Assembly: GCA_027596035.1 (NCBI GenBank)
Contig: JADGJA010000004.1
Coordinates: 38,068-102,067 of the forward strand
From: Thoreauomyces humboldtii
Lineage: Eukaryota > Chytridiomycota > Chytridiomycetes > Spizellomycetales > Powellomycetaceae
Direction of reading: 5' to 3'
Length of the DNA: 64,000 bases
Shown: piece after piece, positions 1 through 62,881 of the stretch
Layout of the letters: each line of letters starts with the position of its first letter
Position numbering within the stretch: the stretch's first letter is position 1
Notes under the pieces: model-generated
The model's input: only the letters and a program-made list of their open reading frames with translations
What the model was told of the DNA's origin: nothing
Databases searched by the model: none
Program-made: the position numbers and the translations under genes

Positions 1-739
<739 letters not shown>

Positions 740-1195
740 AGCTCCAGCCCTCTGCCTTCCCAATGCAATGGTCAAAGGATGCTCAGATCGTCGTATATCA
801 TGGACTTAGCCGAGCCCGAAGGGCAGCAATGGGCGTGGCACGTGCTTGTATGACCGAGGAGAGAACTCTCTGTAGGTTATCGCTACTTCCGGAACCTCCT
901 TTCGTATAGTTATCTTGCCTTCGAGTCCCCTAGTTATCCTGGAGCGATCGAAGGGTGCAAAAGATGTGCGGGGCAATGCCTGTCGAAGGGGGCAGTTGCG
1001 CGTCGTTCCCCCCAGGACGCTCTGCATGCTCAACCGTCGCGATCGTCTTCCTTACCCCGAATTCCCATCACCCCCACCGCTACACGCAAGGAACACAGCT
1101 CTCCCCCGTCTCTACTCGATAATCCTGACATATACTCCATCTAAGCAGTTGATATTACAGTACACTACAATCGGCCTCTGAAAAAACGCGAAGCA
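740..1195. other. Intergenic region between RPT1 and RPN8
   Basis: These 456 bp hold the RPT1 3' flank and the RPN8 promoter. The last ~100 bp are pyrimidine-rich with no clear TATA box. I see no gene, tRNA or repeat. Confidence 0.6.
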
Positions 1196-2394
1196 ATGCC
1201 GTCTGCAACAGCCAAGAGCGTGGTAGTACATCCTCTGGTCCTCCTCTCCGTCGTCGACCACTACAACCGTACCGCGCGAAACACAAAGAAGCGTGTCGTG
1301 GGAGTGCTACTTGGACAGGCGGTTGGGGAACGTGTTAATGTTGCCAACAGCTACGCCGGTCAGTGGGGGCTTGGGCCGCGTGCCAAATGCCGGCAGTGTA
1401 TCGGGAGTTGGAGGAACGACATGAACTGACGAGCGATGCCTTCCGACTCTTCAGTACCGTTCGAGGAAGATGAGAAGGATCCGTCCATCTGGTTCCTTGA
1501 CCATAACTACCATGAGGCGATGTACGATATGTTCAAGAAAGTGAACGGTATGCGTAGCTGGAATGGGGTCGACTTGCCGCACCCTCTCAGCTTTCTCATG
1601 CGCGCGTTTTGAACTAGCAAAGGAAAAGGTGGTGGGATGGTATCATAGCGGACCCAAGCTGCGGGCATCCGATTTGGAAATCAACGAGCTGTTTAAGCGG
1701 TACATCCCAAACCCAGTCCTGGTCATCATTGACGTCAAACCAAAAGATCTGGGCATCCCGACCGATGCTTACTACGCCGTCGAGGAGATCCACGATGTAA
1801 GGACGAACTATTCTCAACATGGTTGCACCGTTCTCATCCAGAATTTAATTGCAGGATGGTACGGCAACGACCAAGACGTTCAACCACATGCCCTCGCTCA
1901 TCGAAGCCGAGGAGGCCGAAGAGATCGGTGTTGAGCACCTCCTCCGTGATATCAAGGACACGTCGGTTGGAACGCTTTCGACAAAGATCACGGCTCAGCT
2001 CAACTCCTTGAAGGGATTGCAACTGCGTCTCGAGGAGATCCGCGACTACCTCTCCAAAGTCCTCTCCAACGCCTTGCCGGTCAATCATCAGATTCTGTAC
2101 AACCTTCAGGACATGTTCAACCTCCTCCCCAACCTTGCCCTTCCACCCACCGTCAAAGCGTTCGCCGTCAAGACGAACGACGAGCTCCTCGTCCTGTACC
2201 TCTGTTCGCTCGTCCGCGCCGTGATTGCGATGCATGGGCTCATCGAGAACAAAATCACTCTGAGAGACGCGGAACGCAAAGAGGAAGCGGGACCTGCATC
2301 GGATGCCAAGAAGGCCATCGAGAAGGGTGGGGAGAAGGACAAGGAGGCTGTCGAGGGAGACAAGCCCAAAGCGAAGGACGGGGAGAAGAAGTAG
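1196..2394 (+). CDS. RPN8: 26S proteasome lid subunit Rpn8
   Basis: MPN-domain subunit of the 19S lid; it pairs with Rpn11 in the deubiquitinating module but is itself inactive. Exons 1196-1358, 1455-1547, 1618-1796 and 1855-2394 join in frame to 324 residues. The N-terminus carries the MPN fold ([14 protein letters not shown], then VVGVLLGQ), followed by the family blocks [19 protein letters not shown] and NPVLVIIDV. The middle ([20 protein letters not shown], then LRDIKD) is near-invariant in Rpn8/PSMD7. The tail is rich in Lys, Glu and Ala, as in other Rpn8 proteins. It lies head-to-tail behind RPT1. No JAMM zinc ligands are seen, as expected for Rpn8. Confidence 0.95.
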
Positions 2395-2784
2395 ATTCGG
2401 TGGAGCCCATCATGTTCCTCTTTGATCTCACCATCGCAATATGAACCTACATTGAACTCTCGAGCTGCCTGCCAGAGCACGAAGTTTGAGCTGTTGAATT
2501 TCCCATCAAGTGCACAGCCCTCCTGCCAGCTCTCTGCCGACCCCTCTTCCAGCGCGTAAGCCTTTGGTCCAAAAAATATCCAACCTGAAGGAGGACGTTG
2601 TGTGATATCCCGCCCATTCCCCACCTGGAGATCACTCCCGACCTCGCAGCAGCAGCTCGTGATCGTCCTAGCCTTACCCAGTCTGAAACGGCACGTCCAG
2701 TCTTCCAGCGTACCTGCATTCGTCGGCCCCTAGTACAAGTACACAAGAACTGCAGAATCTCTACTCAAACCCGAAAGACCGGAA
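2395..2784. other. Intergenic region between RPN8 and RSM23
   Basis: These 390 bp hold the RPN8 3' flank and the RSM23 promoter. I see no additional gene, TATA box or repeat. Confidence 0.55.
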
Positions 2785-4642
2785 ATGATCTTCTCAGCAG
2801 CTCGCTCTGCGTCGGCAGCACTGAGGCGCTCTGCCTCTACTTCCGCCGGCGGAAGCGTCTCACGCAAAGCTTCCGTTACCGCGATGACATCTCAGCTCCG
2901 ACGCTTCGTGGTGTCACCCCATGCAATGGCAGGGAGTTCTTGGAAGAAGGAGAAGGAAGTGAAGGTGCGCTCGGCATGCAATTGACGGAGCCTTGATGCT
3001 TCCATGGACTGAGATATGTGATCGATCAGGCCCCTCGGAGTGAACTGCCAACTTCCACCGCCAGCTATTCCAGTTCCAAAGCAGCGGTCAAGTGGGCACA
3101 TCCCGAGACCCTTCTCGGAGAGTTTGGACCGGTACGGCGCAGAAGAGCGAATCTTCCCAGCTGTTGATCATCAGCTGATGCTCATCTCGGCCTTGCTCAG
3201 AAAAAAGCTCTGGTGGAGAACCTCGGAGAGGTCCTACGACTTCCAGCCAAAATGCTTGAAGCAGCGACGACGAATCCGAAGGGCCTCTACCCGCTCGCTC
3301 TGGCAAAGGAGGGACTATCATCGTTTATGCTACGACAAGTAACGTTGGACGTTATTGCGGCGGCGGGAAAAGCGGCTAGGGAATCTCACTCGAAGGGTGT
3401 CATTGCGATCGGTGCGAAACATAGTGTCAGAGCCCACTTCTGGGCTGTATGTGCTGAACTCCAATCCCATAGACGGCGTTCGTGGGGTGGGAAAAACTGT
3501 GACCATGCTGCAGACGGTCAGCTACTACGTGAGCGAGGGGTGGATCGTATTTTACCTGCCACAAGGTGCGAAACGGCAACTAGTTGCTGTAGTGTCACAA
3601 AGATTACGGAGCTGATATAGGATTCCTTGCAGTATCACAATGGGTAAACGGTATCGAACCGTTTGAATTCGACCCAAAATCATCCACATACCAACAACCA
3701 GCTGTGGCCGCGAGGATACTTGAGCACTTTGTGAACCTCAATAGCTCCAAAGTACTGGGACAGCTCGTGACGAAGGACGGAAAGAAGGTAGCCGATGTCG
3801 CGCGAGATGGCGCTGAGAACCCGGAGCGCGCACAAACAGCTTTGGATGCTGTGCTGGCAGCGCTGGCTGGAACATCGACGGAAAGGTATTGAGTTTGGTT
3901 ACAAATACCTTTGAAGTATGCCGCAGTTCTAATTTCAACCTTGGTATAGGCCATCCGTCCTCCTCGCCGTTGATCAGGTCAATGCTTTTTACTGCAAAAC
4001 TGCGTATCACAACACCGATAGCCAAGTTATAACAGCCAACCAGCTGGCAGTTGTCAGGTCATTTTCTGACATCCTCAACCAACAAACTAAAATCGTAAGC
4101 TCGTATCGAACAGCTTCACGCTAGAATTGTTCTGACCCGTCCCTGTTGCAGCCCAATTCGGCGGTCATCTGCTCCGTAGATCGAAGCGACACACAGCACA
4201 GCTCTCCACTGATCAACAAGCTCTTCAGCACCACCGAGGCTGCCGAAGTTACGAAACAAACCCCCAACGCGAATCCGCAATTGGAAAAGCGATACCATGA
4301 CCTGGCCGCTGTCGACGAGTTTGGCGTCCTCCTCCCCGAGCGCCTCGCACCAGCGAGCTACGACCTTCTTGCCACCACCGCTTCTGAACTGCTCCCCAAA
4401 ATCTCGCAACTCGTTAAAGTCCAACCGTACAGCCTCTACGAGGTCGCATCTGCGGCTTCTTACTACGTTGATATCGAGGCTTTGGCCACTGGTGAGACTA
4501 GAGACATGATGCTTTCTTCAGTATGTTTTGTTCTGACTCCATCATTATTTCAGCGCAACTCACGCGGGAGTACGTTGAAAAGGAGCTGGTGCTCACGGGA
4601 GGAAACCCGCTCAGGTTGCACAGGCGGTGCTTGTCTCTGTAG
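2785..4642 (+). CDS. RSM23: Mitochondrial small ribosomal subunit protein mS29 (Rsm23/DAP3)
   Basis: GTP-binding protein of the mitochondrial small ribosomal subunit. Eight exons (2785-2964, 3030-3131, 3201-3411, 3473-3565, 3633-3885, 3950-4094, 4152-4491, 4554-4642) join in frame to 470 residues. The N-terminus is Arg/Ser/Ala-rich with almost no acidic residues for ~30 positions, typical of mitochondrial import. The P-loop is DGVRGVGKT (codon 1 of the Asp is split by an intron), followed by the DAP3 blocks VFYLPQVSQWVNG, YQQP and a Walker-B-like LLAVDQVNAF. The end, LTGGNPLRLHRRC, resembles the GGNP..L segment near DAP3 C-termini. The last exon's donor-free run to a TAG at 4640 sets the end. 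Confidence is high for the family and moderate for the exact third intron. Confidence 0.87.
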
Positions 4643-4958
4643 GCAACAATTATCTAAACTATACATAGAGGCGTCGAGGCACCTGTGCGTAAGGGAATCA
4701 GCTTTGTCGGGGAGGCTGCTGTCTCGTACATTCGATAAAAACGGAACGTTCCGGTACACCGGGTGCAAACACGCTACGTAAAGCTGTTGGCTCGAACGAC
4801 TTGCGCCTTCGACGAGACTAGCTGCGCCAGTCAAAGCATGTTTAGTGTTGGAAGGCCTTGGACTTCCATGATGTGATGCAGCAGAAATATATTATGATAT
4901 TGGGGCATTGTAAAAGCATATCACTTTTTGTTCCGAACACAAGCTACCTTGGCCCGAT
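4643..4958. other. Convergent intergenic region containing a Tmc-gene 3' remnant
   Basis: This is the gap between the ends of RSM23 (+) and the kinesin gene (-). It contains the ~99 bp repeat at 4842-4940, described separately. Nothing else is seen. Confidence 0.6.
4842..4940. repeat. Dispersed repeat copy A (matches 9225-9316)
   Basis: The + strand reads AGTGTT, then AAGGCCTTGGACTT, CATGATGTGA, GCAGCAGAAATATAT, GGGGCATTGTAAAAGCATAT and CACTTT, ending TTCCGAACAC. The same blocks occur in the same order and orientation at 9225-9316, with small indels and a few substitutions. In copy B the last ~20 bp are the final codons of the TmcB/C-like gene on the minus strand. Copy A read on the minus strand also encodes an almost identical end (VRNKK-stop versus VRKRK-stop). 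Copy A therefore looks like the 3' remnant of a duplicated Tmc-type gene. Confidence 0.8.
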
Positions 4959-6506
4959 CTAACCCCACCTATCCTGCGGTCTACTACCGCGTATGAACGT
5001 CTCCTGACCATACCACGAAAAGCCATTGACGTCCTCGATGGCCGCCGTTTCTCGTTTGGCGGCGGTTCCGTTGACGGCCTGAAGCACTTTTCGATTCGGA
5101 AGGACGTTCCCCGTTACCTTTACCGTTGGCTTGAAGGCCTCAGCATATCTGAAAGCAACGACAAAAAGGAGACAGTGTGAGGCGCCAAACATTCGATTGG
5201 TAAAAAGGTGATGAGAATGCAGCGTTTCGCACCGAAGGGTATTAAGGGAATGGCTCCAGTCCAGGACGGACGGCGCAACGCACGCAATCAGCACAGCAGC
5301 GCGCTCAGTTGATCCGCCGGACAAACACAGCTGCGGTCTCAGGTATCGCGTCAGGAGACTATCGCGCCACGGCCCCGGTTTGCCGGCAGCGAAAGCCACC
5401 AGACACGCCTTCAAACTCGCCAGCGCCTTGTTATTGTCAATCGTCTCCTTCCTCCGCTCCTTTGAATGCAAAGCCGAATCGGCTGCGCGCTCGGATCCCG
5501 CAAGATCGACCACAGTCACGGTCCATGCGGCTCCTCCGGCCCGCTCTCCACGAACGTGTACGATGCAATGGGACCGAGAGGACGTGTCGTTCTTGGCGGT
5601 TGAGGCAGTAGCGCGTAGGGCCGAGACCTCCGACAACAGGGATGCAAGCTCCGTGGGCGAACTAGCTGTTCGGTTGACGAGGCGGGATGCGGACACACCC
5701 CCTCCAGGACCCAGTCCGCTGGTGCCTTTGTCCAAAAGGTCCTTTGCATTGGATCCCATAATCTCCAACGCGCTGATGGTGACCTTCCCTGACGCGCTAC
5801 CATCAAGCAAGTGCGGGATCATCTGCGAGTAGATTCCAGCAACGGTGTGTGTCTTGCCGGCGCCCGTTTGACCATAACTAAGTGCCCCGAAAGGCGATGA
5901 GAACTGCCCTGGCTGGCCTCCGCAAGGGTTCAGACTACAAGAGGACACTCACGCGAGTAACAGGAGACTCTGGAGCGATCCCTCAATGACCCGAGCTATT
6001 TGCGGCGAGATGCGGTGCTGGTAGATCTCACTGTCGGTGGAGTCCGGCCCGAAGGACGCATCTAAGTGGAATTCGTTGGAAACAAAGGTCGGTCCGGTAA
6101 ATTTCACAATCGGTTGATACAGTCGAGTCTCTTGAAGGTTCAATGCAATATGAGCTTTGATGACATTGGAGCCGGTGGAGGAGCGGCATACCGCTGGCGT
6201 GGACGTCAATAACTCCATAGTGAAGGGCGTCGTTCTCGCGAGGCAGCAGAGGCCGCGTTCGGGCGCAAACTAGCAAACAATCAATTTCCTTTTTGACCAC
6301 TGGCAAAACATGAATCTTGGTTGATATGCGAGACACATCTGTTCGTTCTCTCGCTTCTTTCAAGCGACTGAAGGAACAAAGGTGGTCAGTAGGTGAGGCC
6401 CGACAAGTATGGGGGCGGCGATGGCGATCACTTACGCGGTGTAGGCGGAGCGAAACTTCCCTAGAATGCTTTGGGCCGTCAGCAGCTCTGGTGAAGGACC
6501 GGACAT
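4959..6506 (-). CDS. Kinesin-like motor protein, compact
   Basis: Microtubule motor ATPase. Exons (minus) 6506-6436, 6367-6192, 6154-5953, 5877-5233 and 5148-4959 total 1284 nt and give 427 residues in frame. Motor motifs appear in order: VCARTRPLLPREN (beta1), AYGQTGAGKTHT (P-loop, formed across a 75 nt intron), NDTSSRSH (switch I), VDLAGSER (switch II), NNKALASLKACL and LNTLRYAEAF (neck side, formed across an intron). The protein is almost all motor; only ~60 residues follow and no coiled-coil stalk is visible. The upstream KKEIDCLLVCARTRP and the short length recall kinesin-13, but subfamily is unsure. One intron (6191-6155) would be only 37 nt; it is needed to keep frame. A frameshift there is the alternative. 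Confidence 0.85.
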
Positions 6507-6987
6507 GTTCGCTTGCCGTGTGCATACTGTAAGACGGCAATTGGTAGGGTAGGTTCACTATATACTGTATGCGCTCAGGGTGGGATGCGGGCGTTCGATC
6601 TTCCAGATCCCCTACTGTACACATGTACAGCGGAAAGTGAGCGGACTCGCACAAAATATGTTGCTATCCCACCCCGCCAAAATCTCGCCTGCAGAAAAAC
6701 CACGACTTCTTGTACGAGGCCGTTCACGCTTGGGTTGGTTACACAAGCTGTCTGGCGCCAAGAAGATGGAACACCGGATGGAACAATCCTTTGAATATTC
6801 CTTTCCCAGCTCACCACTGTCTAAACCAGTTTTCGTCTTTCGTCAGTCTTTCGAAAATGACACAGGCGACGAGATCGCTTGTCACCTCTTTGCCTCACCT
6901 GTAACTAACCCTCACCCATCCTTCACGTACAAATGGACTCTCCTAGACTTGCCAATCAAGTTGAATTCAAATTGAAAAGGGGTTATG
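6507..6987. other. Intergenic region, kinesin start to UstYa-like end
   Basis: Both flanking genes are on the minus strand, so these 481 bp hold the kinesin promoter and the 3' flank of the UstYa-like gene. Short open frames here have no recognisable content. Confidence 0.5.
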
Positions 6988-7730
6988 TCAAGCTTGAAAG
7001 GGGAAACTATTCGCAGTATCGTATAGGACAGACCAATCTCGGCATGTATGAGTGATATTAGCGCCGATCGCAGGCACGTAAGGCTCTAGGGTGGAGTCCG
7101 CCCCGCAGAGTATGGCTTGCCGTATGTAGTAAAAGCAGTGGTCTATGTGATCAGGCGTGCTGGAAGTATGGTCTTGATCGTTCCTTGCGTCGCGGTGTGG
7201 ATCCGACTCGCTGCTCTTCGGACCGGAACCCCCATGGTAGGGAAGACCCGCGACGTGCTTGCGAATGGCGTCAAGACAATGGAGCTGGTGGAACATCGAG
7301 ATTCCGTAATGCAAGCTCGTTGGAGGTATGGTGATGAAGCCGCCACCACGGGGGAAGAGCTCCAGCCATTCGGACTCGCGCAGAGGCCCGTGCTTGGCAA
7401 AGGACCCGACGTCTTTGAATGTAAGTGATCTGAGGCGCTCCTCAGAACACTTGTTTCCTAAGCCGCAAAAGAAGCAACATCAATAAAACTGTACGTTTCG
7501 TCTATGTCAATATCACCAACCATACCAAGATTGCCAGCCAGTACAAAGGTGATGAGCATGGTACCCACCAAAATAATGGCAAGGCACGACGCCAGAGTGC
7601 GCGCGACGCTGCTCTTTGTGCCGCTGTGATTGCTCAAGCCTACATTTTGGGCGAGCAAGGCTTCTGTGGACTCCATGAAAGGGGGAGGTGGGGGCGGGAA
7701 AGAGGAAGAGAAAAGACTTCCCATCATCAT
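6988..7730 (-). CDS. UstYa-family (DUF3328) oxidase-like membrane protein
   Basis: UstYa-type proteins are copper-dependent-type oxidases that install cyclising bonds on fungal ribosomal peptides such as ustiloxin, and also act in some mycotoxin pathways. Exons 7730-7495 and 7429-6988 (65 nt intron) give 225 residues. The short cytosolic N-terminus is Pro-rich, followed by one membrane helix (LASCLAIILVGTMLITFVLA). The lumenal domain has PRGGGFITIP, then both diagnostic HxxHC motifs, FHQLHCLDAIR and HIDHCFYYIRQ, and the family block LCGADSTLEPY. Size and layout are standard. The start is the first ATG (7730) of an ATG triplet; the upstream open frame lacks an ATG and runs into the foldback element. 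It is divergent to the repeat-peptide precursor gene at 8806. Role by context: tailoring enzyme for that peptide (inference). Confidence 0.88.
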
Positions 7731-7830
7731 CTTCCGGAGACGACAACAAATGTATATGAAGATATGTGTACTGAGTCGGGCGCGGAAAGTCAGCCGGACC
7801 TGTACGGTCGTATGGACGCCAGCGGCCACT

Positions 7831-8350
7831 GGAAGGAATTCAATGGAATCCAACGCACCCTAACACCAGTGTCGTTTCCGTGAAACCGCATGTGCCTGTC
7901 CGCTAAATTACAGGTTGCATATGGTGCAACGTTTGAGACCGTCCCTTTCCGTCAAATTACTGTACATGTTATACAAGGCGCAACCTGTGGGACCCGTCCC
8001 TTTCCGTCAAATTACAGGTTATACACAAGGCGCACGCGGTAAGTTAGAATGAGGAAAATTCTACAGTCGAGCGTAGAAAGTACAGTAGGTGGACTGTCAC
8101 AAGAAGTTGTGGTCGTGATGCAGGCACGATTTCGGCAGAGTGGTCCTTGTCCCCCTATACTGTTTTTACGCTCGACTGTAGTAGTCCCGAGGCAAGAAAC
8201 TGCGGGATAACCTGTACAGTAATTTGACGGAAAGGGACGGTCTCAAACGTTGCACCTTATGCAACCTGTAATTTAGCGGACAGGCACATGCGGTTTCACG
8301 GAAACGACACTGGTGTTAGGGTGCGTTGAATTCCTTTCCTTGAATTCCTT
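7831..8350. mobile_element. Foldback/MITE-like element with ~120 bp inverted arms
   Basis: The left arm 7851-7970 and the right arm 8209-8328 are inverted copies with only about two mismatches across ~120 bp (for example GCATAT versus GCATAA in the middle). Weaker similarity continues outward through GGAATTCAA blocks to about 7831 and 8350. Inside lie a partial direct copy of the arm (about 7987-8036, sharing CCGTCCCTTTCCGTCAAATT) and a perfect inner 15 bp inverted pair (8062-8076 and 8167-8181). No transposase frame is present, so the element is non-autonomous. No convincing target-site duplication was found. It fills half of the shared upstream region of the UstYa-like gene and the peptide precursor gene. 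Confidence 0.85.
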
Positions 8351-8722
8351 AATTTGCTTCATCGATGTGAGGACCAGCAAGGTGATCAACCTCGAGTGAT
8401 ACAGTACGTACTGGTACGCAAATGGTGGTGCACGGATTGAGAGAGAGGGGGAAAGAGTGGAAAGGGGCGTTGCAAAGAATGGCGGTCAGGGTGTGAATAC
8501 TGTATGACTGTCGGGAAGCAGTCCGGAAACAGCGGGATTAGGAAACACGAACACCCATGCTGCCAAGAAGACTGCAATGCGATAAAACAAATCACGCATT
8601 GAAACAAGACGCCCAAGTGTCTCCATCATTGTCCGCACCCATCAGCTGTGCGACGAGCAACCCGCAACAATTTGGCGTCCGCTACGCTGTTTACAGTCAA
8701 AGGGACTGCACTCTGTCAACTG
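8351..8722. other. Upstream region of the repeat-peptide gene
   Basis: No gene is supported here. A minus-strand open frame at 8386-8616 is low-complexity and lacks conservation cues. The region leads to the TATA box at 8723. Confidence 0.5.
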
Positions 8723-8729
8723 TATAAAA
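8723..8729 (+). promoter_or_regulatory. TATA box of the repeat-peptide precursor gene
   Basis: TATAAAA lies 77 bp upstream of the ATG at 8806, followed by a pyrimidine-rich stretch. A start site ~30 bp downstream would give a ~50 nt leader. This is one of the few clear TATA boxes in the window and fits a strongly or conditionally expressed gene. Confidence 0.6.
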
Positions 8730-8805
8730 TCAGCACAATATACTGATTCCCCAGACCTCCCCAGTTCATCGGTCAACCCGCAACCATTCTTCAAAACAAG
8801 TCAAA

Positions 8806-9214
8806 ATGCTTCTCAGCATCGGTCCTGTGTTCCTCGCTCTCGTTACCGTTTCTGTCGCACTTCCAGCACCTGCCCAAGTCAAAACTCTGGACAAACGCTG
8901 TACGTGACACTCTTTAATGTGACAAACCCTCGCTTCCTGTGTTCATTTTTATAAACAGGCTTTGCACATGAGAATGGCGGCATTTTTACCCACTGGTGCC
9001 CTTTCGACAACAACCCCCCTGTCGAAAGCGATGGGACCGTCAAAGCTCTGGACAAACGCTGTACGTGACACTCTTTATGTAACAAACCCAGCGCTTCGCG
9101 TGTTCATTTTTATAAACAGGCTTCGCACATGAGAATGGCGGCATTTTTACTCACTGGTGCCCTTTCGACAACAACCCCCCTGTCGAAAGCGATGGGACCG
9201 TGCAAGCCGATTAG
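8806..9214 (+). CDS. Secreted Kex2-type repeat-peptide precursor (RiPP-like)
   Basis: Exons 8806-8899, 8959-9060 and 9120-9214 give 95 residues. A signal peptide (MLLSIGPVFLALVTVSVALP) is followed by a short pro-segment ending KTLDKR. Then come two near-identical repeats. Repeat 1 has 34 residues: it starts CFAHENGGIF, continues THWCPFDNN, and ends KALDKR. Repeat 2 is identical over its first 28 residues and ends VQAD-stop. Each repeat follows Lys-Arg, a Kex2 site, and holds two Cys 13 apart plus Trp, His and Phe. Both introns are 59 nt and split the codon of the first Cys in each repeat. The layout matches Kex2-processed precursors of dikaritin RiPPs (UstA type). The divergent UstYa-like gene supports that reading. 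A mating-type peptide pheromone or other secreted signal is the alternative. Confidence 0.85.
8880..9202 (+). repeat. 161 bp tandem duplication (intron plus peptide module)
   Basis: From the KR-coding end of exon 1, a 161 bp unit (spacer end, 59 nt intron, peptide exon) is repeated once directly in tandem. The two introns share length, donor GTACGTGACACTCTTTA, acceptor-side TTCATTTTTATAAACAG and most of the middle. The exons differ at only a few positions. The similarity of introns as well as exons indicates a recent genomic duplication. Confidence 0.9.
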
Positions 9215-9224
9215 TCCCCATACC

Positions 9225-9316
9225 TAGTGTTTAAAGGCCTTGGACTTTCATGATGTGAAGCAGCAGAAATATATCATTGGGGCATTGTAAAAGCATATCA
9301 CTTTCTTTTCCGAACA
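9225..9316. repeat. Dispersed repeat copy B (matches 4842-4940)
   Basis: See the copy at 4842. This copy spans the 3' flanks of the peptide precursor gene (+) and of the TmcB/C-like gene (-), and includes the latter's last codons and stop at 9298. It is probably the intact source. Confidence 0.8.
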
Positions 9317-12300
9317 CCATCGTCAGCGAACATCCCGCCGCTTTCGATGAAACGTTTGATTTCTGGGACCGCCTGGATGACTGTTTCTGGAATGCCAAAG
9401 ACAAGTGTTACGGCGCACTCCATCTCCACGAGACGAGCCTTGACAGTGGCGTGGAAAAGGAGCAGATACACCAGGAGGGTTCCGACGAGAGTGAGTGCAA
9501 AAATGATGGTCATCGCCGTTTGACCAAGCGAGTTCCTAGATTAGAAGACGAAGTGATCTTAGCGTATGTATGTGTGGTCTCACATAGAGGAAGCTCGGAG
9601 CCGTACCCGTCCAAGATGATGGATTGGAAGCTGGTATCCATGTTGTTCAGGTTATCCACCACACTATTCAGCATCTCGTTCATGAACAGCATATTGCTTT
9701 GTGCAGTTGCCGCTAGCGCCAACGGGCTGCCTTGCGCCAAGTACCCTCCAAGGTCCGTCGCGGCCGTGATGAACATGCTTATCTGGGCGTCGATGCCCGC
9801 GGTAATATTCCCGCATGCGGGTTGACAGGGGGCCGAGACCAAGGTCACTTGTTTGAGAGCCCCGATAGAAGGCGTTGCAATACAGTTCGTGCCTGTGATC
9901 GAGTCTGATTGACGGCTAACAAGGGACGAGAGACGATCGCGATAGTTCATGAGGGGCTCGTAAGGGAGCCAGGTCGTGTTGTCATATATCAAAGACTGCA
10001 AGGAACGCAAGCGATCAATTGAGAGTTTTCCGCCACAGCGTGAAGGACAACTTTCCCACCTCTTTGCCCAGGAACACCACTGCTTGAGCAAGGGACCGCC
10101 GCTGATTCGTATAAGACATGGTTTGCGCGTAGTTAACCGAATCGACTGCTCTCAACTGTGGCGGAAGTTCGTAGAAGGTGAGAAGAGCTAATCTGTCGCC
10201 TTTTAAATCCCACGGAAAACTTACGATCGGTGCAAGCAGCAAACTGATGCCTGGCAAAGCCAATACAACGAGACCTGAAGCGTAGCGTACGACATGTTTC
10301 TTGATCGAAGATTGTTTGACCAAATCGTCAGGATCCATGTTCCGGTTGATCATGCGGTTGGCCGCCATCGCCGCTGACTGATTGTTGACGTTGGCGCCCG
10401 AGGAAGAAGCTGGGTTCTCAAGTCCATTCTCGTCTACGCCCTGTGACGCAGCCGTCATCTCGTCGGAGATGGACTCAATCTACCATGGGAAAGCACTGGT
10501 CAGCGAAAAGGCGAGCTATGCAAGAAAAACATCCGCAGGTGCTCACCTGCTCCTCGATTTCCGTTAGCATGCTCATCAATGCCTTTTTGGGTATCATGGC
10601 GTACATCTTCAACGTTCTGGTCTGCTCGTCAGAAGAATGCCTAATCATGGGCCAGAAGACAAGGTACGCCCATCCAAGCATGCTCAGCACTAGAAGACAC
10701 AAAAGTCCGTAGAGCACGTAGACATTTTGCATGGAGGACTGGATCCAGGTTTCCTGGCCCGTCGACATGGCATCGTCGAAGCCCGCCGCGATGGTGAGGA
10801 CGTTGTCCAGAAAATATCGCACTGTATTGTCCGTCTGGAGAACGTTATTTTGAAAGTACGAATAATCTGGGAGAAAAATCAGATTAGATTCCGATTGACA
10901 TATGGATGGAGGCGAGGCGCCGACTGCGACCAAAAGCACTTACCACGCCCTTCAATGGTTGTCCCATACTGATGGATTGTTTTCGCAACTTCGTAAGCGT
11001 TCGTGTGAGCCAAGTCCTTGTAAGGCACAGGGTAGCTGGATGTCTATAGCACAGAAAACAATGAATCAGTCCGAGAAATTGATGAGATAGGTCTCTATAA
11101 TCCGACTTACCTCTAGAGTAATGGAATCAGCTGCCATGTAGAACTGTGCCAGATAAGGCAAGTAAAACGTGGTGTAGTTTGTCATCAGACTTGACAATGA
11201 CGCCATCGACGAATCATACACATCGCGACTCGCTACAGGGTCGGTCGAACTAGAGATCTGAGTCAGATCCCTTACAAGTCCAGCGAGGAAAATGGCGGTT
11301 TTCGAGAGACGAGTCCCGCGCACGAAACCGTTGATGGAAGACTCGGCGGCTGAGAACGACCATAGACCGATGGAAAATGCTACAACAATATTGGCTAGGT
11401 AAAAGCAAGTGGTAAGCTTTTGATTCCGATCAAGCTCGACCACGGGTGCTTTTAAGCGAGTTTGCAGCTGCATCTTGTTGTAGACCTGCAACAAAAATGG
11501 ACGCATAAGACAAAAACGATCACAGGAATGAGTGCATTCATTACCTTGAGCTTGGCCTCCCTTTCGGATGATTTCGTGCTTCCTCCCGCGCTTTCACTCG
11601 GCATTCGCCCTTCTAGTCTGGTTGTATCATCCATGTCCGGAGAGATGTTAAACCCGACACCTTTCGCCTCCCCACTGCCAACTCTTTCCAAATTTCCCAT
11701 TCCCTCATCATCCTCGTCGGTCCGCGGTTGCATACTCATTCGACGCCGCAACTGCGAGGTGTTTTTCACAACGGGAAACTCTCGGGAAGGCATCTCGTCC
11801 TGGTCGTTTCGTATGCTCGATCGGCTCAGAACAATTTCGGGAACCGTCACGACTTCGTTGGCAAGGGAGTCATCCGAATCCTCTCGGGTCTCCTTGACAC
11901 CAGAAGCACCAGCTATCGCATCCGACCGCGTGCCCGTATCCATCTGTGCATGCATGCGACCACCGGCCTGCTGAGCCAGGGAAGCCCCGACTTTCGTTGA
12001 CGGAGAAGATCGCATGGATCCATGACGTTGAATGGGTGCCGAGCTGGTCATGCGCATTTCGATCTCTTCAATCTCTTCGGCCATCATCATGTACTTTGCG
12101 GCCGTTTCTTTCTCGTTCTAGAAATCAAGCGCTGAGTGAAGGATATTCGATAGATAACGTGCCAGGAGCGCCTACCTTGATCTGAAGCAGGAAACTCCCA
12201 TACATCCGGAGCAGCACCTTGCTTTTTGGCCACCTGGCAATAAGCTTCTTATAGTAATCCGTGGCCCTCTGCTCAGCCTCACTGATCCGCTGCAAAAAGA

Positions 12301-14368
12301 TTGGATAGGTCTTCGGATCGCGCCCGCGCTGTCCGCTTCGAACATGCGACAGGAATGCCCGAAGTTCGATGAGCGTTGCGAGGTGATCGCGCCTCGCACC
12401 GTTTTGCATTGTCTGGAACTCCACATATGACGAGCTGAGAAGATGTTGATATATCAGCGTAAACTTGAACTGATGTACATGTCTTTACGCTCGTACATGT
12501 TGAGAGTCGATGAGTTGAGTCCCTCCGTTCTCTTGGACTGCTCCAGGATTCGATCCTGAACAACCCGTTAGTTTTTTCATCACGGAACACAAGCCCTGCT
12601 CAACCTTCGTACCTGCATAAAGATGAAGAATCGAGCATCAAATGGCGGTTTCAGAGACTTCGCTAGATTTACAAAATAGACTGGCTCCTGGCTTTCGGAC
12701 GTATAGGTTTCTAGATAACCGGCATAACTGCTCGGAGGTTAACGCAGGTCAATTTAATACTACAACTTGGCACTTACATTAGCTTGAGCATCGAATTCCG
12801 GGGGAACTGGTCGAACCCTTCCCCGAAAATCTCTTCCATGATGTAGAGGGCTTGCGGGGTACGGTTATCGTGGACGAACCGACAAGCGAGCTCAACTTCC
12901 GCGGGATGAGTGAAGACCTTGATTGTCTGCAAATGCGGAAGGCCGTTAGTGAAAGCTTTCTCATAATGGAAGCAAGACTGACCTTTGGTCTGGTCCGCGT
13001 CCCAGTGATGGTATGAAGATCACGCATGGCTTGGATCCCGTCAAAGCCTTCTCCTCTTTCCGCCTTATCTTCCAGCGATTCAGTGGTCTGACGATTTGGA
13101 CCACTCGTCACCCCTAGGTCCTGCATGCTCTTCCCGAGCCCCTTGTGCTTCATCTGTATCCGGTTGTAAACCCTTCGAACTGTGATTCGGAAAATGGCGC
13201 GGCAGGTGGCCGCACCCGTGATGGCGCCGACCAGCACGCTGACAACCGCAGCGATGGGAAGCGTTTTACCAGGGCTTTTCGTGACGTGGGACACTAGAGC
13301 TACGACGGCTGCGAAAGCCGAAGCCATGAAGAGTGCGGCCCGGAGCTCGTTGTGAGATCGAATGTAGAAGGGTTGATACCGGATTATCAGAACGGAAAGC
13401 AGCGCCGTAACCGGGATCAGAAAAGCTATTCGGAGGACAGCCGAGCTTGACAGAGTAAAAACGAGAGTAACGAGAATTCGAGATATAGCATAGATGGTGT
13501 CTAGTCTTCCGATAGGAACTCTCGCCGTTTTGTTGCTCCTGTTCGGACTGGTGTCGAGGTAGATGGCTGACATGCACACATTGTACGGTACGAAGACCAT
13601 CAGCACGAATAAAACGATGATGGTCAATGCGCTATTGCTTCCGCTGAAGCATTCATGGTTCGGATACTCGACGAGTGTATTGTTTGGTCCCGAGCAAGTC
13701 ACGGCGACGAAAAGAATTTCGATGACGGGGATGAAAAGAATAGTGCCCAGAAGCTGCGTGAGCAGTCGTAGCGTTTTGAGCGCATACAAAGAGATCCCGG
13801 CGAACTAGACACGGTGACAGAATAATGTGGCATCTGTCAACATATGTCCGATCACTACCTTAGGACACTGCTGCTAACCCAATACCTTTCCACTTCCGAA
13901 GCTCATAGCAACCTCCACCGCAGAAACAACCGCAAGCATGACAAGGCCAATGACCACACCAAGCAATACTAAAAATCCACTGTAGCTGTGCGGTCGATAG
14001 CTCAGCGGATTGGTGATATACGGCGCCCAGTCCGGCATGTCGTCATAAAAGATCGGGTTGAAGGCAAACGAAATCAGCTGCATGTCCTCGAACAAAGTGA
14101 TAAGAACTGAGAGCAGGGAATTGACGTCGTTGTCGTGCACCCTTTGTTCGAGCAAAGACTGCAATGTTAGATCAGGGCGAACAAGGTCAATGGACGATGT
14201 GTCATACATCGAGTACAGCACGCTGAAGGTGACATCTTCGACTTTGCTCTGAAATGAGCAATAAGTTGAATACTTGCTGCTATCCAATGGAGTCTCTCGT
14301 TCACTTCCTCGACATACCGCAAACGACGTTGCCACGTGCTTTTCAGCATTTCCTTGCTGATTGACCAT
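9298..14368 (-). CDS. TmcB/TmcC-like polytopic membrane protein with TPR region
   Basis: It resembles the tiny-macrocysts B/C family known from Dictyostelium and zoosporic fungi; its function in fungi is unknown, probably sensory. Fifteen exons join in frame to 1387 residues: 14368-14318, 14248-13886, 13804-12983, 12926-12778, 12727-12613, 12555-12497, 12434-12176, 12117-11545, 11485-11111, 11043-10944, 10866-10547, 10479-10225, 10155-10060, 9995-9607, 9535-9298. Order: N-terminal membrane helices (LVLLGVVIGLVMLAVV, then a block of about seven), and the TmcB-type TPR stretch (HPAEVELACRFV, FPRNSMLKL, PPFDARFFIF, then KKLIARWPKSKVLLRMYGSF). A disordered acidic/Ser-rich linker of ~190 residues follows, then a second membrane half with helices at YLANIVVAFSIGLW, YGLLCLLVLSMLGWAYLVF and IIFALTLVGTLLVYLLLF. 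The start is the only ATG in frame before the first intron. Confidence 0.82.
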
Positions 14369-14850
14369 GATTAGTTCTCAGTTTTCAGAGTCGTTCGGCG
14401 CCGTGCCCCTGTATAAGAAGAAGTAGGCGACCGATGTCACGTCTTCCTTGGAAAGAAGCCCGCCCGGCCATAGGACGACATGAAGCAGAAATGGCGGGAA
14501 GCACAGTAGAAGTGGGGCTTACTACCGTGGAGCCCAACTGTGGGGATCGGCACCACCCACTTGGATATATATAGGCAAGTCCCTCTGCTCCCCTGCTGCC
14601 TGGCCTGCTGCTCCTTTAACGGCAGCTCCGACAGCTCCAGCGGAGTGACGGCGGGTCGCTTACCTAATCCGTCGCGGTGGAATCGAGTCAGTTCCACGCT
14701 TCGGGGAGCAGCTCACTTCCAGGGGTTGACAAGAATCTTTAGCGGCGTGAAAGCTTGCAACAGCAGTCATCAAGCTGTCATCGATGGGTCCGCATTTCCG
14801 AATTGAATGAGCAAAAGCTGCTTAAAGCATGCATTAAATAAATTCAATAT
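14369..14850. other. Intergenic region upstream of the TmcB/C-like gene
   Basis: These 482 bp hold the promoter of the Tmc-like gene and the 3' flank of the helicase gene. A TATATATA run occurs near 14566, but it is not correctly placed for either gene. No coding content is seen. Confidence 0.5.
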
Positions 14851-17800
14851 CTAGTAATCCGAATCCCCATCGCTATCACTAACTGCTCTAGCGGCCGCGC
14901 TCGCCTTCTTCCTGGAACCCGCCCCTGAGTCTGCCATCTCTGACACGCTGCGGACCATCTCGCTGCATCGTATCGCATCTCGCTCGTCGTCGTCGTCATC
15001 GGGATGAATCAGAGCCGCCGGTGGCCAGTACTGCGAGAGGGCGGCGTGGAAGGCGTCGGGGGCCCAGAGCAGATACGACGTCAGAAGAAACTTCGGGTCC
15101 TTTCGCCACTGGGCAAGAAGCTTTTCCCGAGTGTCGACTTGGGCCGAAACGAGGGCGGCGACGAGGGTGCTGACCTTCTGCTGCGTCTGACCCCACGGTT
15201 TTGTGATGGTGACGGTTTTGGTGTCGAGGAAGGGAAAGAGAAGTGGGAAGATCTCGACGGGACCATTCTTTTTGCTGGATTTCTTCGCCTTCTTCTTCTT
15301 CTGTTGTGGCTGAGCGATCCGAGCGACAAGGGGTTCTTTCGGGGGTGCCATCAGCGGAATCTTTCCTTCGATAAGACTCCTCGCTAGCCACCTACACCGG
15401 TCGTCGAGACGGGGCAGTTCCACCTCTCGAGTGGGGAGCTCCCACATCTTGGGACCGTAAGTGGGTACGCAGAACCCGAGGACGCAGTCCTGTACAGGAT
15501 CCCATCTAGGTTCCGGTTGGTCGACCACCTTGCCGGTTCGACAGAGACTGCGAGGTGCGACGGGAGCGATCCACGCTGCATCGACGGCTGACACACCCTT
15601 GAGCCAGACGCGAGTAAGGTCAGTTCCGTCTGCCGCCTTGACTTGCGCGTTGAGACGGGTGGCCACGACGCCGCTGTTGTCCGCCGCCATCTTCTCTTCC
15701 CTTCCCACAAGCTCCTCGTAAACGACGAAGCGAGGAGCGGGGCGCTCACGATTCAAACAGCTGGATGGATGAATCTGACCGACTTGTTCCTTTCCGCCCC
15801 AAAGTGTTCGATATACAGGAACGTACTTCTGTCCTGCGTACCCTTTGCTCGTCGCTTCGTCCAGCTGCGCCACGCGGTCAGCGAAGCCTGCAAGTATTAC
15901 CTGCAGAATCGCTGCGGAGTCACGTGCGGACGGCGGTGGAAGTCCTGGATCAACGCAGAGACCCGCCACAGCCGGGTAGAGCTTGTTGTTCCCGCTTAGG
16001 CTGAGTTTGACGAGATTGGTGAGCTGCTGACGGAGCTTGCGCATTTCCTCCATAGCCTTTGGCCGTAGGAAATTGGCATCGCAGAAGGCAGTCGGGTCAC
16101 CTCCTCGTCGGTTCGATTCTGCAGTATGTGCGCCAATGGCCGTGAGGAGTCGCAGAGCATCTGACGTAGGTGGATTGCCTGAGAAAACAAGCATCGTCTT
16201 GTAAAATGATGCTCGTTTGGTGCTTCGCTTGTCCTTTTCGTCCGCGTCTACGTCTTCATCATCTGAGTCGCTCTTGGGACGCCCAATGATATCCTCGTCA
16301 CGAATGAAGGGATCCCCGACAGAAAGACCCGATACGATGGCGATGACATATGCCAAGATATTCCCTGGCTGCGACGCTGCGACGATCACCATCTTAGCGT
16401 AACGAGGCGAGACAGGGAATTTTGACATGACACGTCCGAGCTCGGTGATCTTGAGCGTGTTAGATTCGTGGTCTACGGCGCCGAGATAGGTCAGGAGCTT
16501 CTCTGCAGCTCGCAAGTTTGCTTTTCCAGGTGGTGTTGGGAACGGGAAACCGACGACGTTGTTGATCCCCATGCTCTTCATCGAGAGTACGACGCCTTCG
16601 ATAGGGATGCGAAGGATTTCCGGTTGGGAAAACTGCTCAAAATAGTCATTGAAGACCGCCGAGCTGAAGAGTCGGTAGCAGTGACCAGGTCCGACACGAC
16701 CAGCACGACCAGCACGTTGATCTGCCGAGGCTCGGGATGTCCAGCACACCTGGTACGTCTGAACGCCAGAGTGCGAGTCAAACTTTCGCTCCTTCACCTT
16801 GCCGCAGTCGACGACATATTTGATGCCGGGGATAGTCAGAGAAGTCTCAGCTACGTTGGTGGCAACCACGACGAGACGAGTTCCTGGGGGTGGCGACTCG
16901 AACACGCGCATCTGCGCGGCTGTTGGCAAGAGCGAGTAAAGAGGCAGGACGTGAAGTGGTAGAGCTTCATCTCTACTCGAAGGCTGGAACTTCTCGAGCT
17001 CGTCGTCTTCGTCTCCGCTCAGGCCCCCAAGCACATCGACGTCCTCTTCTTCGGAGTCACCTTCCGAGTCGCTCCCGTCTTCCTCCTGGTAGTCGTCGTT
17101 TCCGCCGCGTCCAAGCTCGACGTCCGCTTCAGCAGTCTCGTCAGCCTCCCCGAAGAGGGCGTCAGAACGATCCGCAGCCGAAGCTTTCGAGTGTTCCTCC
17201 AAATCATTGCGTTCCGCCTCCTTCGCTCTCCGCAGCGGAAAGGCCTTGCGCAGGTTCCGCACAAGGACTTGAATCTCCTGCTGACCAGTCATGAAGACCA
17301 AGATGCCACCTGGGGGGAGTTGTGTGTGGATCTTCGTGATCTTTTTCAGCGCTTCGCTGCCATAATCGATCTCAGGAGTCTTTTTGTTATAATGAATAAC
17401 AACCTTAAAACCGCAATCGTTCAGTAAAGAAAACTCTTCCCCGCAGTTACTCGCAATTGATCCCACCTTGTGCTGTCGGCCATCGACCTTTACAACCGGT
17501 GGGCGCTGCAGAACTGGGAACAGTGTTTCGTTCATAGTGAAGTCCTCCACCCGGAGAGTCGCAGACATGATAACCAGCTTCAGAGGTTTTACGCCAACCA
17601 CCTTCCCAGAGTTCCGCAACGAAACGATCCTGGTGAGCCAGCCGATGAGAACATCGGTTCCGATGGTTCGCTCGTGAGCTTCATCTATGATGATGCAGGA
17701 GTACTTCTGCAAGAGTATGTCCGGTGGTCCGTCTTTACTGGCCGACGGATGTGACTCCCCTCCCGCCGCAACGCTCAGCTCTCGTAGCAGAATACCATCC

Positions 17801-19351
17801 GTCATGAACTTTATACGCGTGTTCTTGCCCGTTCCACCCTTATCGTATCGAATTTGATAAGCGACCTCTCCGCTCTTCAGCGCCATCTCGTCCGCGACAC
17901 GTTGCGCCATGGATACCGCTGCGACTCGACGCGGCTGGGTAATGCCAACCATGCCTGGGAATTGAGGGTGCGCGGGATCACCGAATCCAGATTCGTACAG
18001 GAACTGCGGTACCTGAGTCGTCTTTCCGGACCCGGTCTCGCCACACAGGATCGTGACGTCGTTCTGGAAGATGGCTTCCATGATTGGCTGTTCTTCCATG
18101 ACGACTGGAAGCGATATTCGAGCAAGCTGGATAGACTCCGGGCGGTTGACCGGCACGTGGAACGCCGACTGCGCTGCTATTCGCGGACCTTTTGCCTTCA
18201 TAGTGGGAGCAACCACCGCTTTCTTCTTCGATGGAGCGGGAGCCGGCAAGCTTTCTCCATCCACGACATCGGCGGCCCAGATATCTTTCCTTCCGCGCTG
18301 AACAACGACCTCCTCCTCCTCCTGCTCCATGGCTTCATCGTCAGTGTCATCCAAGTCGCTGTTGGAGAGATCAGAGTCCGAGGCAACCATAGGGGCAGCC
18401 TTCTCCTTCTGTTGCTTCTTCTTCTTTCGCTTCGGAATGGCGGTGTCGCCAACAGCGTCGTCTGCCTTGCGTTTGAGGGCTCCTCCAAACACCGCAGGTG
18501 CCTCCTCCTTCCGAGCGTGCTCTCCAAAAACCTGCACATCCGCTGGACCAGCCACGGCTTGTCCAAACGCTTGCCCTACCAATCCCAGCGAAGAGTTCGC
18601 GGCGCTCGGCTGAGCGGCAGCCATCAAGTCCTCGCCATCATCGAAGTCGTGACCGTCGTGGTCGCTGCCGGCGCCGGCGGGCACGTAGAGCTCCGCGCCG
18701 TCGTCCTCGTCCTCCATATCCTCCTTGTACTCCTGGGCATCCTTCTCGACTACCAAGCGGCCCGAGGCATCAGCGTAGGACGATGCGATGCCAGCTCGCT
18801 CCTCCAACAGGGCTTGACGCATGCGCTCTCTTGCAGTGAGTTTCTAGAGGGGAAAGAGTCCTGTCAGATCTGCAGTCCGGGCGCCTGAATCTGCCACGTG
18901 CGCCCCCTCCCACCTTCTGCCCGAACGCTTTGCTGGATCGAAGGAGGCCGGAGGAGAAGGTGGTCTCACTCAGCCTCTGCAGTAGATTAATCCGTTCGTC
19001 CTTCTTCATCTGCTTCTCGATGAACTTTTCCAGACGCTTCTTCTTCTTGGAAGTCATCTTTCCCGTCGGTTCCTCGGGAAGCAACGTCGTGTCGAGCGTT
19101 CGGGCCTTGTCCTTGGGTATGATGATGTCCGGGATGGATGAAGAGGATGCATTGTATGCGACTCCATCGTCTGCCAGGGACGATACTGCTGGCGGTAGCG
19201 CGGGAGACGGGTTCTGTGCGGTTGTCGCAGGACGTTTCCTTGCCAGCTGCTTGAGGCCACCGTCGCGGGCCGACGGATGTGGCTTTGCTGTCTTTGCCAG
19301 ATGCGAGCCGGCCCTTGCCTTCTCGTTGTACCGAGGCCTGAGCTTCCCCAT
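14851..19351 (-). CDS. ECM16: DEAH-box RNA helicase Dhr1/DHX37
   Basis: Nucleolar helicase that releases U3 snoRNA during 18S rRNA maturation. Exons 19351-18914 and 18843-14851, split by a 70 nt intron, give 1476 residues. The N-terminus is Lys/Arg-rich (MGKLRPRYNEKA, then TSKKKKRLEKFIEKQMKK). Helicase motifs appear in order: GETGSGKTTQ (I), a DEAH box (IIIDEAHERT), MSAT (III), TNVAETSLTIPGIKYVVD and QRAGRAGR (VI). Helicase-associated and OB-type regions follow. Two acidic stretches (DDGAELYV region near residue 190 and EEDGSDSEGD near residue 780) resemble the acidic insertions of Dhr1. It is longer than yeast Ecm16 (~1270) because of these insertions. The start is the first ATG after stops in the leader. 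Confidence 0.93.
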
Positions 19352-19759
19352 CTTGTATGCGGGGAGTAGGGAGAAAGGGTTGCAGTGCTGTAATGCTCGA
19401 GAAATGGCGGGTTCGACCAACTTTTGGGACGGGGGAACAAGTTTGCCAAAAAAGAAGCATAACCATTCGACAGTGTGGAAAATGACATTTACCGGTAGCC
19501 CCGCAACCCCGCCCCCAGATTTCGCCGGACGTCTGCCAGACCGTCCAGACGTGGGAGGTTGCACGTGGGGAGTATACCGTAATACCTGACCCTCCTGGAG
19601 GACGCCGGGGAGGACGAAGACCTGTCGCGGATGATTTGATGCATATGATTCAGGGAACGACTTATGACTACGCTTCCCGTTTACGAAAGCCCGTACGCAA
19701 ATGTCTAGTGTGAGTGAAAGCTTGCAGAAGTGCTTGCGCATGGGGGGCTTTCAGCCCTC
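19352..19759. other. Intergenic region upstream of the helicase gene
   Basis: These 408 bp hold the helicase promoter and the 3' flank of the next minus-strand gene. I see no gene or repeat. Confidence 0.5.
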
Positions 19760-20767: not shown

Positions 20768-21378
20768 GATGTGTACGGTATAGTTGTCTTGGGTATGTCA
20801 AACGAAGCTATCCTACGCTTGCTCGCCATCCCCAGGGGAACCGGTCAGACAGTCGGGCAGCAGCAGCACGCGTCTCCCACCCTCGGCTTGTAGTCCGGAT
20901 GGTCCGAGAGACGGTGTGTCTTTCTGGATGAGGTTAAGGTCGACAGGAGACTCTCTTTCGCCCTATACAATACATCATCCTCCTTCTCATCCGCTTTTTG
21001 GACAATACATCATGTAGTCATTCCGGCCCTTGAGGAATACAGCCTTGATCGGGTATAGCTTCGAAGAAAATAGTAAATTTGTCCTTAGCAAATCGGTGCT
21101 TTATTATGGAACCCAAAGCTACTTGCCCAAAAATATGCCCCGACCAGCGATACGCCCTGGGGACCGACTTGGCTAGACACTAGACCCGCTAGACGATGAA
21201 CACCAAGCCAAAGTAATTTTCCCAATGGTCAACGGAAGGGCGCTGTGGTTCAGACTGCATCAGACTGCGTGCCCGTTTTGAACCCGAGGCGCTTCGACCC
21301 GGCCCGGCTCGAGAGCCAACAGGTTCGGGCGTCTTCGGCGAATGAAAGAAACTTGGCAGGCCAGATGCCCGCGAAATC
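20768..21378. other. Intergenic region before the palindrome
   Basis: These ~610 bp include the promoter of the six-exon gene. Plus-strand short frames here show no conservation cues. Nothing else is seen up to the palindrome arm. Confidence 0.5.
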
Positions 21379-21649
21379 GCCCCAGGAACAAGTGGTTCTT
21401 CGACAAGTTCTGATGGGATCAAGGCCATTGACAAGCCCAGCGGCGGAATTTGTCGCGCGAAATGCCAAGGACGTGACGGTCATCTCGACGTCTCGACGGT
21501 GTCGAGTCTCCCACTCCGAGTACTCCTGGAGCGTCGACGCTGAGACGACCGTCACGTCCTTGGCATTTCGCGCGACAAATTCCGCCGCTGGGCCTGTCAA
21601 TGGCCTTGATCCCATCAGAACTTGTCGACGAACCACTTGTTCCTGGGGC
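21379..21649. repeat. Large imperfect palindrome (108 bp arms, ~55 bp spacer)
   Basis: Left arm 21379-21486 and right arm 21542-21649 are inverted copies with about three mismatches. Both arms read from the outside GCCCCAGGAACAAGTGGTTC inward through CAAGGCCATTGACA to CCAAGGACGTGACGGTC. Because of this symmetry, open frames on both strands contain the same peptide (QVLMGSRPLT, then AAEFVARNAKDVTV). Those frames are by-products and are not called as genes. Confidence 0.9.
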
Positions 21650-21779
21650 AATTTCGTTTGCTTCCTCCAGACGTTGACTTGACCTCTCCACGAACGAGCT
21701 AGAGAAATGGATAGTTGGGCGTGAGCTGCCGCAGGCGAGAGGACACAAGCGCGCGACTCGCGATTCGAGCAGCGTTTTC

Positions 21780-48566: not shown

Positions 48567-49103
48567 GATGGGGTGTTGGCGAACGACGAGTGAGATTGCT
48601 TGCCAGGCTAGGAAAGCTTGAGGGCGGCTACACAGGATTATATAAAGAGGAGAGTTCCCTAGCGCGTGCGGAGGAAGAGATTGAAGACACGTCGGAAGGT
48701 CGAGTCCACCATGATGTGTGTGCCCCCCTTGGCTCTCGTCGTGCGTGCATGTTGCGAGATTGGGTGTCAAATGGCGTTCAATCGGACAGCGATGGCGTCT
48801 TCGGATTGTCATCAGAAAGAGAGAGGGCTGAGCTGTTCATTAGGAAGGTCAGCCATCCATCAGAGACTGCGCCACCCACCTCGCTGCAGTGTTCGACACC
48901 TCCAAACACTGACTCCAATCCGTTATCGTGGATGCGGACGCTTCTCCGAAAGTGTCGGTTGTCGAGTGCAGTCACCGGTACGATGCCGATGGATCTTTTT
49001 TAGGTACACGATCACAAGCAAGAAGGAGTAGCAGTAGTAAAAAAAAAGAGAGGAATGGAAAAAGAAGTGCACAAAGAAAGGGAAGAAGGAAAAAAACAAG
49101 AGT
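48567..49103. other. Intergenic region between the MET10 fusion and NOT1
   Basis: About 0.54 kb; promoter and leader of the sulfite-reductase fusion and the NOT1 3' flank. A purine-rich stretch lies at 49017-49100. No gene is seen. Confidence 0.55.
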
Positions 49104-62584: not shown

Positions 62585-62881
62585 TCCGACACTGCAATGC
62601 TCCAATGCGCAAGGGACAATCCATTTCTTCCCAGCTCTTCGTTTGGCTCGTTGATTCCATTTCACCCTCCATCTGCCCTGGTCTGTCAAGGAAGACCTTG
62701 TTGAGCAGTCGGCAACTCGCAGAGAAACGACCTAATCCAGTCTCGTCATGCTGTCCAGTGAATTTTGGCGGCAAGTTGCTGAACTCGTCCGTCGGTAAAG
62801 TACAAGGAGAGTAAGCTGGGAATACACAGCTCCGCGAGTCGATGAACGACTCGGCATGTCCTCAAAGATAGTACATATCAG
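62585..62881. repeat. Dispersed repeat copy 2 (matches 56850-57120)
   Basis: About 297 bp; slightly longer than copy 1 because of an insertion near 62610-62635. It contains the same conserved hairpin. The tandem array begins ~45 bp downstream. Confidence 0.88.

Follow-up and report, generated by a model that had tools for sequence, protein, structure and literature searches.

A peptide precursor gene beside a ustYa-like gene in the chytrid Thoreauomyces humboldtii: a probable minimal UstYa-type RiPP locus

Whether chytrids carry loci for UstYa-type RiPPs is the question raised by a small gene of the chytrid Thoreauomyces humboldtii (Chytridiomycota, Spizellomycetales, Powellomycetaceae). Enzymes of the UstYa family close peptides into rings in moulds and mushrooms. 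A survey of 1,461 strains (Umemura 2020) counts 1,647 precursor-DUF3328 pairs in Ascomycota and 103 in Basidiomycota. Its 19 chytrid strains have 178 Kex2-repeat proteins (9.37 per strain), none of them so paired, and DUF3328 proteins are missing from its list for the six other phyla (PMC7329392). Among the listed titles and abstract openings of open-licence papers, none describes a UstYa, DUF3328 or ustiloxin-type RiPP in chytrids or early-diverging fungi. The gene lies in a window of 64,000 nucleotides, the whole stretch of DNA analysed, whose positions are used throughout, and a first-pass annotation had proposed it as the precursor of a new fungal RiPP.

The precursor gene (8806-9214, forward strand) comprises three exons and two introns. 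Exon 1 (8806..8899) encodes a signal-peptide-like hydrophobic N-terminus, judged by hydropathy alone, and a pro-segment that ends in VKTLDKR, a Kex2 site. Intron 1 (8900..8958; 59 nt, GTACGT...CAG, phase 1) splits the first Cys codon of core repeat 1 (CFAHENGGIFTHWCPFDNNPPVESDGTVKALDKR), which is carried by exon 2 (8959..9060). Intron 2 (9061..9119), also of 59 nt and 90% like intron 1, precedes exon 3 (9120..9214), which encodes core repeat 2 (CFAHENGGIFTHWCPFDNNPPVESDGTVQAD) and the stop codon. Both introns start with GTACGT, end in CAG and interrupt the first Cys codon of their repeat in the same phase, and the unspliced frame meets an immediate stop (KRCT and then the stop codon). At 102 nt, exon 2 is frame-neutral, so that its skipping or duplication leaves the frame unchanged. 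A putative TATAAAA box (8723-8729, forward strand) stands 83 bp 5' of the ATG. The spliced CDS of 291 nt gives a product of 96 residues plus stop, where the first-pass annotation had counted 95; its coordinates, three exons and 59-nt introns agree with the spliced CDS and the GTACGT/CAG borders.

The product has the architecture that had been described for it, namely a signal peptide (by hydropathy), a pro-segment and two near-identical repeats, each preceded by Lys-Arg; the Kex2-type KR sites fall at residues 30-31 and 64-65. The repeat units are 34 and 31 residues long and share 28 identical residues, CFAHENGGIFTHWCPFDNNPPVESDGTV, which are followed by KALDKR in unit 1 or QAD in unit 2. Each unit holds two cysteines 13 residues apart (Cys1 and Cys14), and there is no Tyr anywhere in the precursor, core included.

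The earlier suggestion of an undescribed peptide family is upheld as far as searched, and the predicted core appears to have no relative within that scope. No homologue of the precursor was found at E <= 10 in 5.8 billion proteins (27 candidates shared words), no match in Pfam, mating-factor families included, and none in the PDB. NCBIfam returned a chance match only (13.3 bits against a cut-off of 442), and in the 20.67-Mb genome the precursor matches itself only. A small, apparently secreted, cysteine-containing product with no homologue found would suit an effector or antimicrobial peptide, disulfide-folded and used in microbial competition or in contact with a substrate or host. This reading is nevertheless highly improbable: the units have just two cysteines each, none of the Pfam, PDB or NCBIfam searches lends it a family, and it leaves unexplained the UstYa-like neighbour described below.

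At the DNA level the two repeats form a tandem duplication with a unit of 161 bp, intron included, and 94% matches, and Tandem Repeats Finder gives just one further row in the whole window. Because the duplicated unit contains the intron, the gene has one exon per peptide, each in the same phase. Across the 28 shared codons the copies differ at three bases, all three silent, whereas introns 1 and 2 align with 54 matches, 4 mismatches and 2 one-base gaps (6 of 60 aligned positions differ). The contrast between codon and intron divergence is not significant over 28 codons (p = 0.16), nor with substitutions only (p = 0.44); dropping the last codon, at the boundary, gives p = 0.07 for 27 codons, and running the comparison beyond the end of the repeat gives p = 1.0. 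Selection on the peptide was therefore rejected as a conclusion from the copy comparison, the silent-only differences being too few.

On the other side of the start codon, 1,075 bp from ATG to ATG and in divergent orientation, lies an intact ustYa-like gene. Its two exons on the reverse strand encode a protein of 224 residues: exon 1 (7526..7730) provides the N-terminal part with a single transmembrane stretch at about residues 46-64, and exon 2 (6988..7457), beyond a 68-nt intron picked by eye (7458..7525, GTATGG...TTAG), provides the UstYa domain (PF11807, E = 4.3e-20). The Pfam profile is matched at 72.9 bits (cut-off 25) over positions 123-214 of 220. An N-terminal membrane anchor is typical of the UstYa/DUF3328 family, and here the stretch at residues 46-64 has a mean Kyte-Doolittle value of 2.58. 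Two HxxHC motifs have been suggested as a mark of RiPP-related UstYa/DUF3328 members (PMC12048977). The chytrid protein carries both, HQLHC at residues 125-129 and HIDHC at 172-176. Across this protein and 23 aligned relatives, no change is seen at H125, Q126, C129 or C176, and H128, H172 and H175 hardly vary.

These 23 relatives, confirmed among 180 candidates, share 29-41% identity with the chytrid protein. Fourteen of them bear an organism name, and all fourteen we take to be Ascomycota or Basidiomycota. PDB sequences gave no match at E <= 1 to a profile built from the UstYa alignment. No relative was confirmed in viral contigs (0 of 154 pattern matches) or in prokaryote genomes (0 of 39). 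To test for a horizontal origin, a tree was built from 23 of the aligned sequences, omitting the 24th, P0025, whose C-terminal part is unlike that of the rest. The tree has good support on 4 of its 20 inner branches and leaves the chytrid row long and unplaced.

Searched in six frames with the UstYa profile, the 20.67-Mb genome gave at least one match, and the sole one found is this gene. That the genome's only UstYa/DUF3328 match found adjoins the precursor makes the RiPP idea much stronger. The chance of a given precursor falling within 1.1 kb of the ustYa-like gene is about 1e-4, rising to about 1e-3 if the genome holds as many Kex2-repeat proteins as the survey gives per chytrid strain, namely 9.37 (PMC7329392). 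In the same survey, the directly adjacent position is where DUF3328 genes are most frequent around Kex2-repeat precursors (PMC7329392). The odds of a UstYa-type RiPP locus rest on the gene pair, and a minimal, secreted locus of this type in a chytrid is, in our judgement, its likely explanation.

The same chance figures bear on the simplest competitor, in which Kex2 cleavage of the precursor releases an ordinary signalling peptide or pheromone, either linear or closed by a Cys1-Cys14 disulfide and untouched by the neighbouring enzyme. Kex2-repeat proteins are common in chytrids, where the surveyed ones all lack a DUF3328 partner (PMC7329392); a spacing of 13 residues suits a disulfide, and the core is without Tyr. 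Tyr is described as present in 65.6% of the repeated sequences of DUF3328-accompanied Kex2-repeat proteins, against 38.2% in the others (PMC7329392). Against a plain peptide stand the low odds of chance proximity to the genome's sole UstYa match found and the habits of pheromone genes: Kex2-repeat genes annotated as mating factors or pheromones lack, with three exceptions, a nearby DUF3328 gene, and pheromone genes are almost never near one (PMC7329392). We consider a plain peptide unlikely, if the most serious of the alternatives. The chytrid precursor resembles ascomycete alpha-type pheromone precursors in its Kex2-released repeated peptides and in a Trp-Cys pair, which pheromones of filamentous ascomycetes also contain; it lacks a mating-factor Pfam match.

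A UstYa-type RiPP locus invites comparison with the dikaritins ustiloxin, phomopsin and asperipin-2a (UstA, PhomA and AprA with UstYa, UstYb and AprY). Shared features are a signal peptide, repeated cores separated by Kex2 sites, a precursor gene beside a gene for the class-defining DUF3328/UstYa enzyme, and two HxxHC motifs in that enzyme. The chytrid locus differs in its host, in its two repeats, in Tyr-free Cys/Trp/His/Phe units of 31-34 residues and in the lack of a recognised classical tailoring gene nearby. Precursor units are given as 13 residues for ustiloxin, 14 for phomopsin and 8 for asperipin-2a (PMC7329392). The first-pass idea of a RiPP, drawn from the shape of the precursor alone, has gained from the adjoining UstYa gene. 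Its strict dikaritin form has evidence against it: the core is Tyr-free, the repeats are two, the units long, and the usual tailoring genes were not recognised in 56 neighbouring ORFs. Asperipin-2a likewise has a single DUF3328 gene; this gene, aprY, is described as essential for its making (PMC7329392, PMC6514808), and the cluster is described as having four genes, without a tyrosinase or methyltransferase (PMC6514808).

Other Kex2-processed families help to place the precursor. With the Kex2-repeat proteins, or KEPs, of two surveys (Le Marquer 2019, Umemura 2020), which also occur in chytrids, it shares a signal peptide and Kex2 sites between near-identical repeats; unlike all 178 surveyed chytrid KEPs, it is accompanied by a DUF3328 gene. 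Both surveys define KEPs by at least three repeats between Kex2 sites (PMC7329392, PMC6339444). Since the chytrid precursor has two, surveys with that criterion can miss such loci. Victorin and the epichloecyclins are likewise Kex2-processed multicore fungal RiPPs, with ascomycete hosts and other cores. Victorin is described as cyclised via a Phe side chain (PMC9233826), which shows that residues other than Tyr can react in such RiPPs.

Tailoring genes were sought with Pfam in 56 neighbouring ORFs, 47 in the window and 9 in its 20-kb left flank; the scan took in every ORF of 110 aa or more in 1-14,400 (two antisense ORFs and the two of the UstYa gene itself excepted) and picked ORFs further out. 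No P450, FMO, tyrosinase, S41 peptidase or transporter family was found in these 56 ORFs, and the sole methyltransferase-like match among them is a sub-cut-off TP_methylase in the siroheme-synthase ORF (44-49 kb). The absence of a recognised classical tailoring gene nearby suggests a minimal pair of precursor plus oxidase. GNAT acetyltransferases at 31.0-31.9 kb and in the left flank, and a phosphopantetheinyl-transferase-type ORF in the left flank, are too distant to be linked with the pair. Neighbouring genes that were recognised encode a Rpn8-type proteasome subunit (identified by its JAB and MitMem_reg matches), a kinesin, a protein with a TPR_TmcB match, DHX37, a trehalase, a siroheme-synthase fusion and Not1. 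The fusion, a long ORF at 44228-48607, joins siroheme synthase with pyruvate-ferredoxin-oxidoreductase-like and FAD/NAD-binding domains, as a fused sulfite-reductase-type protein. Elsewhere in the genome there are five tyrosinase-domain matches, on contigs C36, C58 and C122, none near the precursor, and two loci with a Kex2/furin-type P_proprotein domain.

The surroundings also bear on where the pair came from. A direct repeat bounds the block of kinesin, UstYa and precursor genes: its left copy (4843..4940, forward strand, 98 bp) is 88% alike to its right copy (9225..9317, forward strand, 93 bp), which begins just 3' of the precursor's stop codon, and the repeat is matched nowhere else in the genome. 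It is possibly the trace of an insertion, a local duplication or a rearrangement. Between the two genes lies an inverted repeat (7833..8350) with arms of about 140 nt, 94% alike, and a MITE-like 121-bp element inside (8061-8181). A shared promoter of the pair is not evident because this 518-bp inverted repeat separates the genes. Together, the flanking direct repeats and the inverted-repeat and MITE-like DNA could mark an insertion or local rearrangement. A multi-copy mobile element between the genes was considered and rejected: the full inverted repeat was found once in the genome, and the MITE-like core alone recurs, in short repeats resembling it on five other contigs (C480, C182, C574, C174, C426). 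A fragment at 6669-6713 resembles this core as well. Also rejected was an older precursor copy 5' of the left direct repeat (4000-4842), where similarity is no better than chance. Further repeats of the window are a self-palindromic segment of about 285 bp (21372-21656), 88% alike to its own reverse complement, and a 236-bp direct repeat of 92% identity (56885-57120 and 62646-62881).

The bounding direct repeats and the intervening inverted-repeat and MITE-like DNA would suit a decaying remnant, an unexpressed locus left by a mobile or horizontally acquired segment. Decay accords poorly with two intact reading frames, clean splice sites and preserved HxxHC motifs; the silent differences between the repeat copies point the same way, too few for significance. 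GC3, at 0.62 in the UstYa gene and 0.58 in the precursor, comes close to the values of three neighbours (0.63-0.67). A remnant has, of all the readings weighed, the slightest chance of being right.

Contamination from Dikarya was rejected, as the pair sits between genes of a contig whose DHX37 has its best matches in chytrids, first in Thoreauomyces humboldtii (95%) and next in Geranomyces, Powellomyces and Spizellomyces (75-68%). The DHX37 affinity and the presence in the genome of IFT46, a flagellar transport protein, bear out the earlier description of the host as a flagellated fungus. Contig C502 carries a second DHX37 copy, 95-98% alike, which suggested a second haplotype without the locus (a diploid with an empty site). 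This too was rejected: C502 and the window share one 4.76-kb block with DHX37 (14731-19488, 96%), their sole similarity, so C502 is better taken as a segmental duplication and is silent on the presence or absence of the locus.

In favour of a RiPP were counted the PF11807 score, the neighbourhood, HxxHC conservation, the transmembrane stretch, the chance odds and the P_proprotein loci; counted against it were the Tyr-free core, the two repeats, the missing tailoring families, the non-significant silent differences and the intervening inverted repeat. What we infer for the pair, its expression, modification and chemistry, release and biological role, would run as follows. The precursor would enter the ER by its N-terminal signal, and in the Golgi a host Kex2/furin-like protease would cleave behind both Lys-Arg pairs, releasing two near-identical peptides of about 31-34 residues that start with Cys. 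The monoisotopic masses computed for these are 3516.55 for repeat 1, its KR removed, and 3403.43 for repeat 2. The membrane-anchored UstYa-like oxidase would act in the same secretory lumen. UstY enzymes are described as using O2 at a dicopper site (PMC12186524), and the chytrid enzyme is probably like its relatives in this. It would oxidise the core, most likely linking two side chains within CFAHENGGIFTHWCPF, where Cys1, His4, His12, Trp13, Cys14 and the Phe residues are candidates. As the core has no tyrosine, ethers of the Tyr type known from ustiloxin, phomopsin and asperipin are impossible here, and a crosslink, if there is one, would be of another sort. The peptide would then be secreted, perhaps as a signal or defence compound.

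A more specific proposal is that chytrids make UstYa-modified RiPPs and that here the crosslink of the Tyr-free core joins Cys, Trp, His or Phe of CFAHENGGIFTHWCPF, for example as a Trp-Cys or His-centred bridge. In this full form it is a tentative idea, which we think somewhat doubtful. If true, the Tyr-free crosslink would, to judge from the literature consulted, add a new reaction to the DUF3328 family, carried out outside Dikarya by a locus of two genes with one exon per peptide.

Its single precursor and single oxidase would also make the locus a small test bed for dicopper UstYa action on a Tyr-free peptide. It is apparently a UstYa-type RiPP locus of two genes only, in a phylum where the 19-strain survey found none. 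A chytrid precursor-oxidase pair would either place the system nearer the root of the fungi or point to its transfer between distantly related ones, and UstYa-type peptide chemistry may extend deeper into the fungal tree than the published survey showed.
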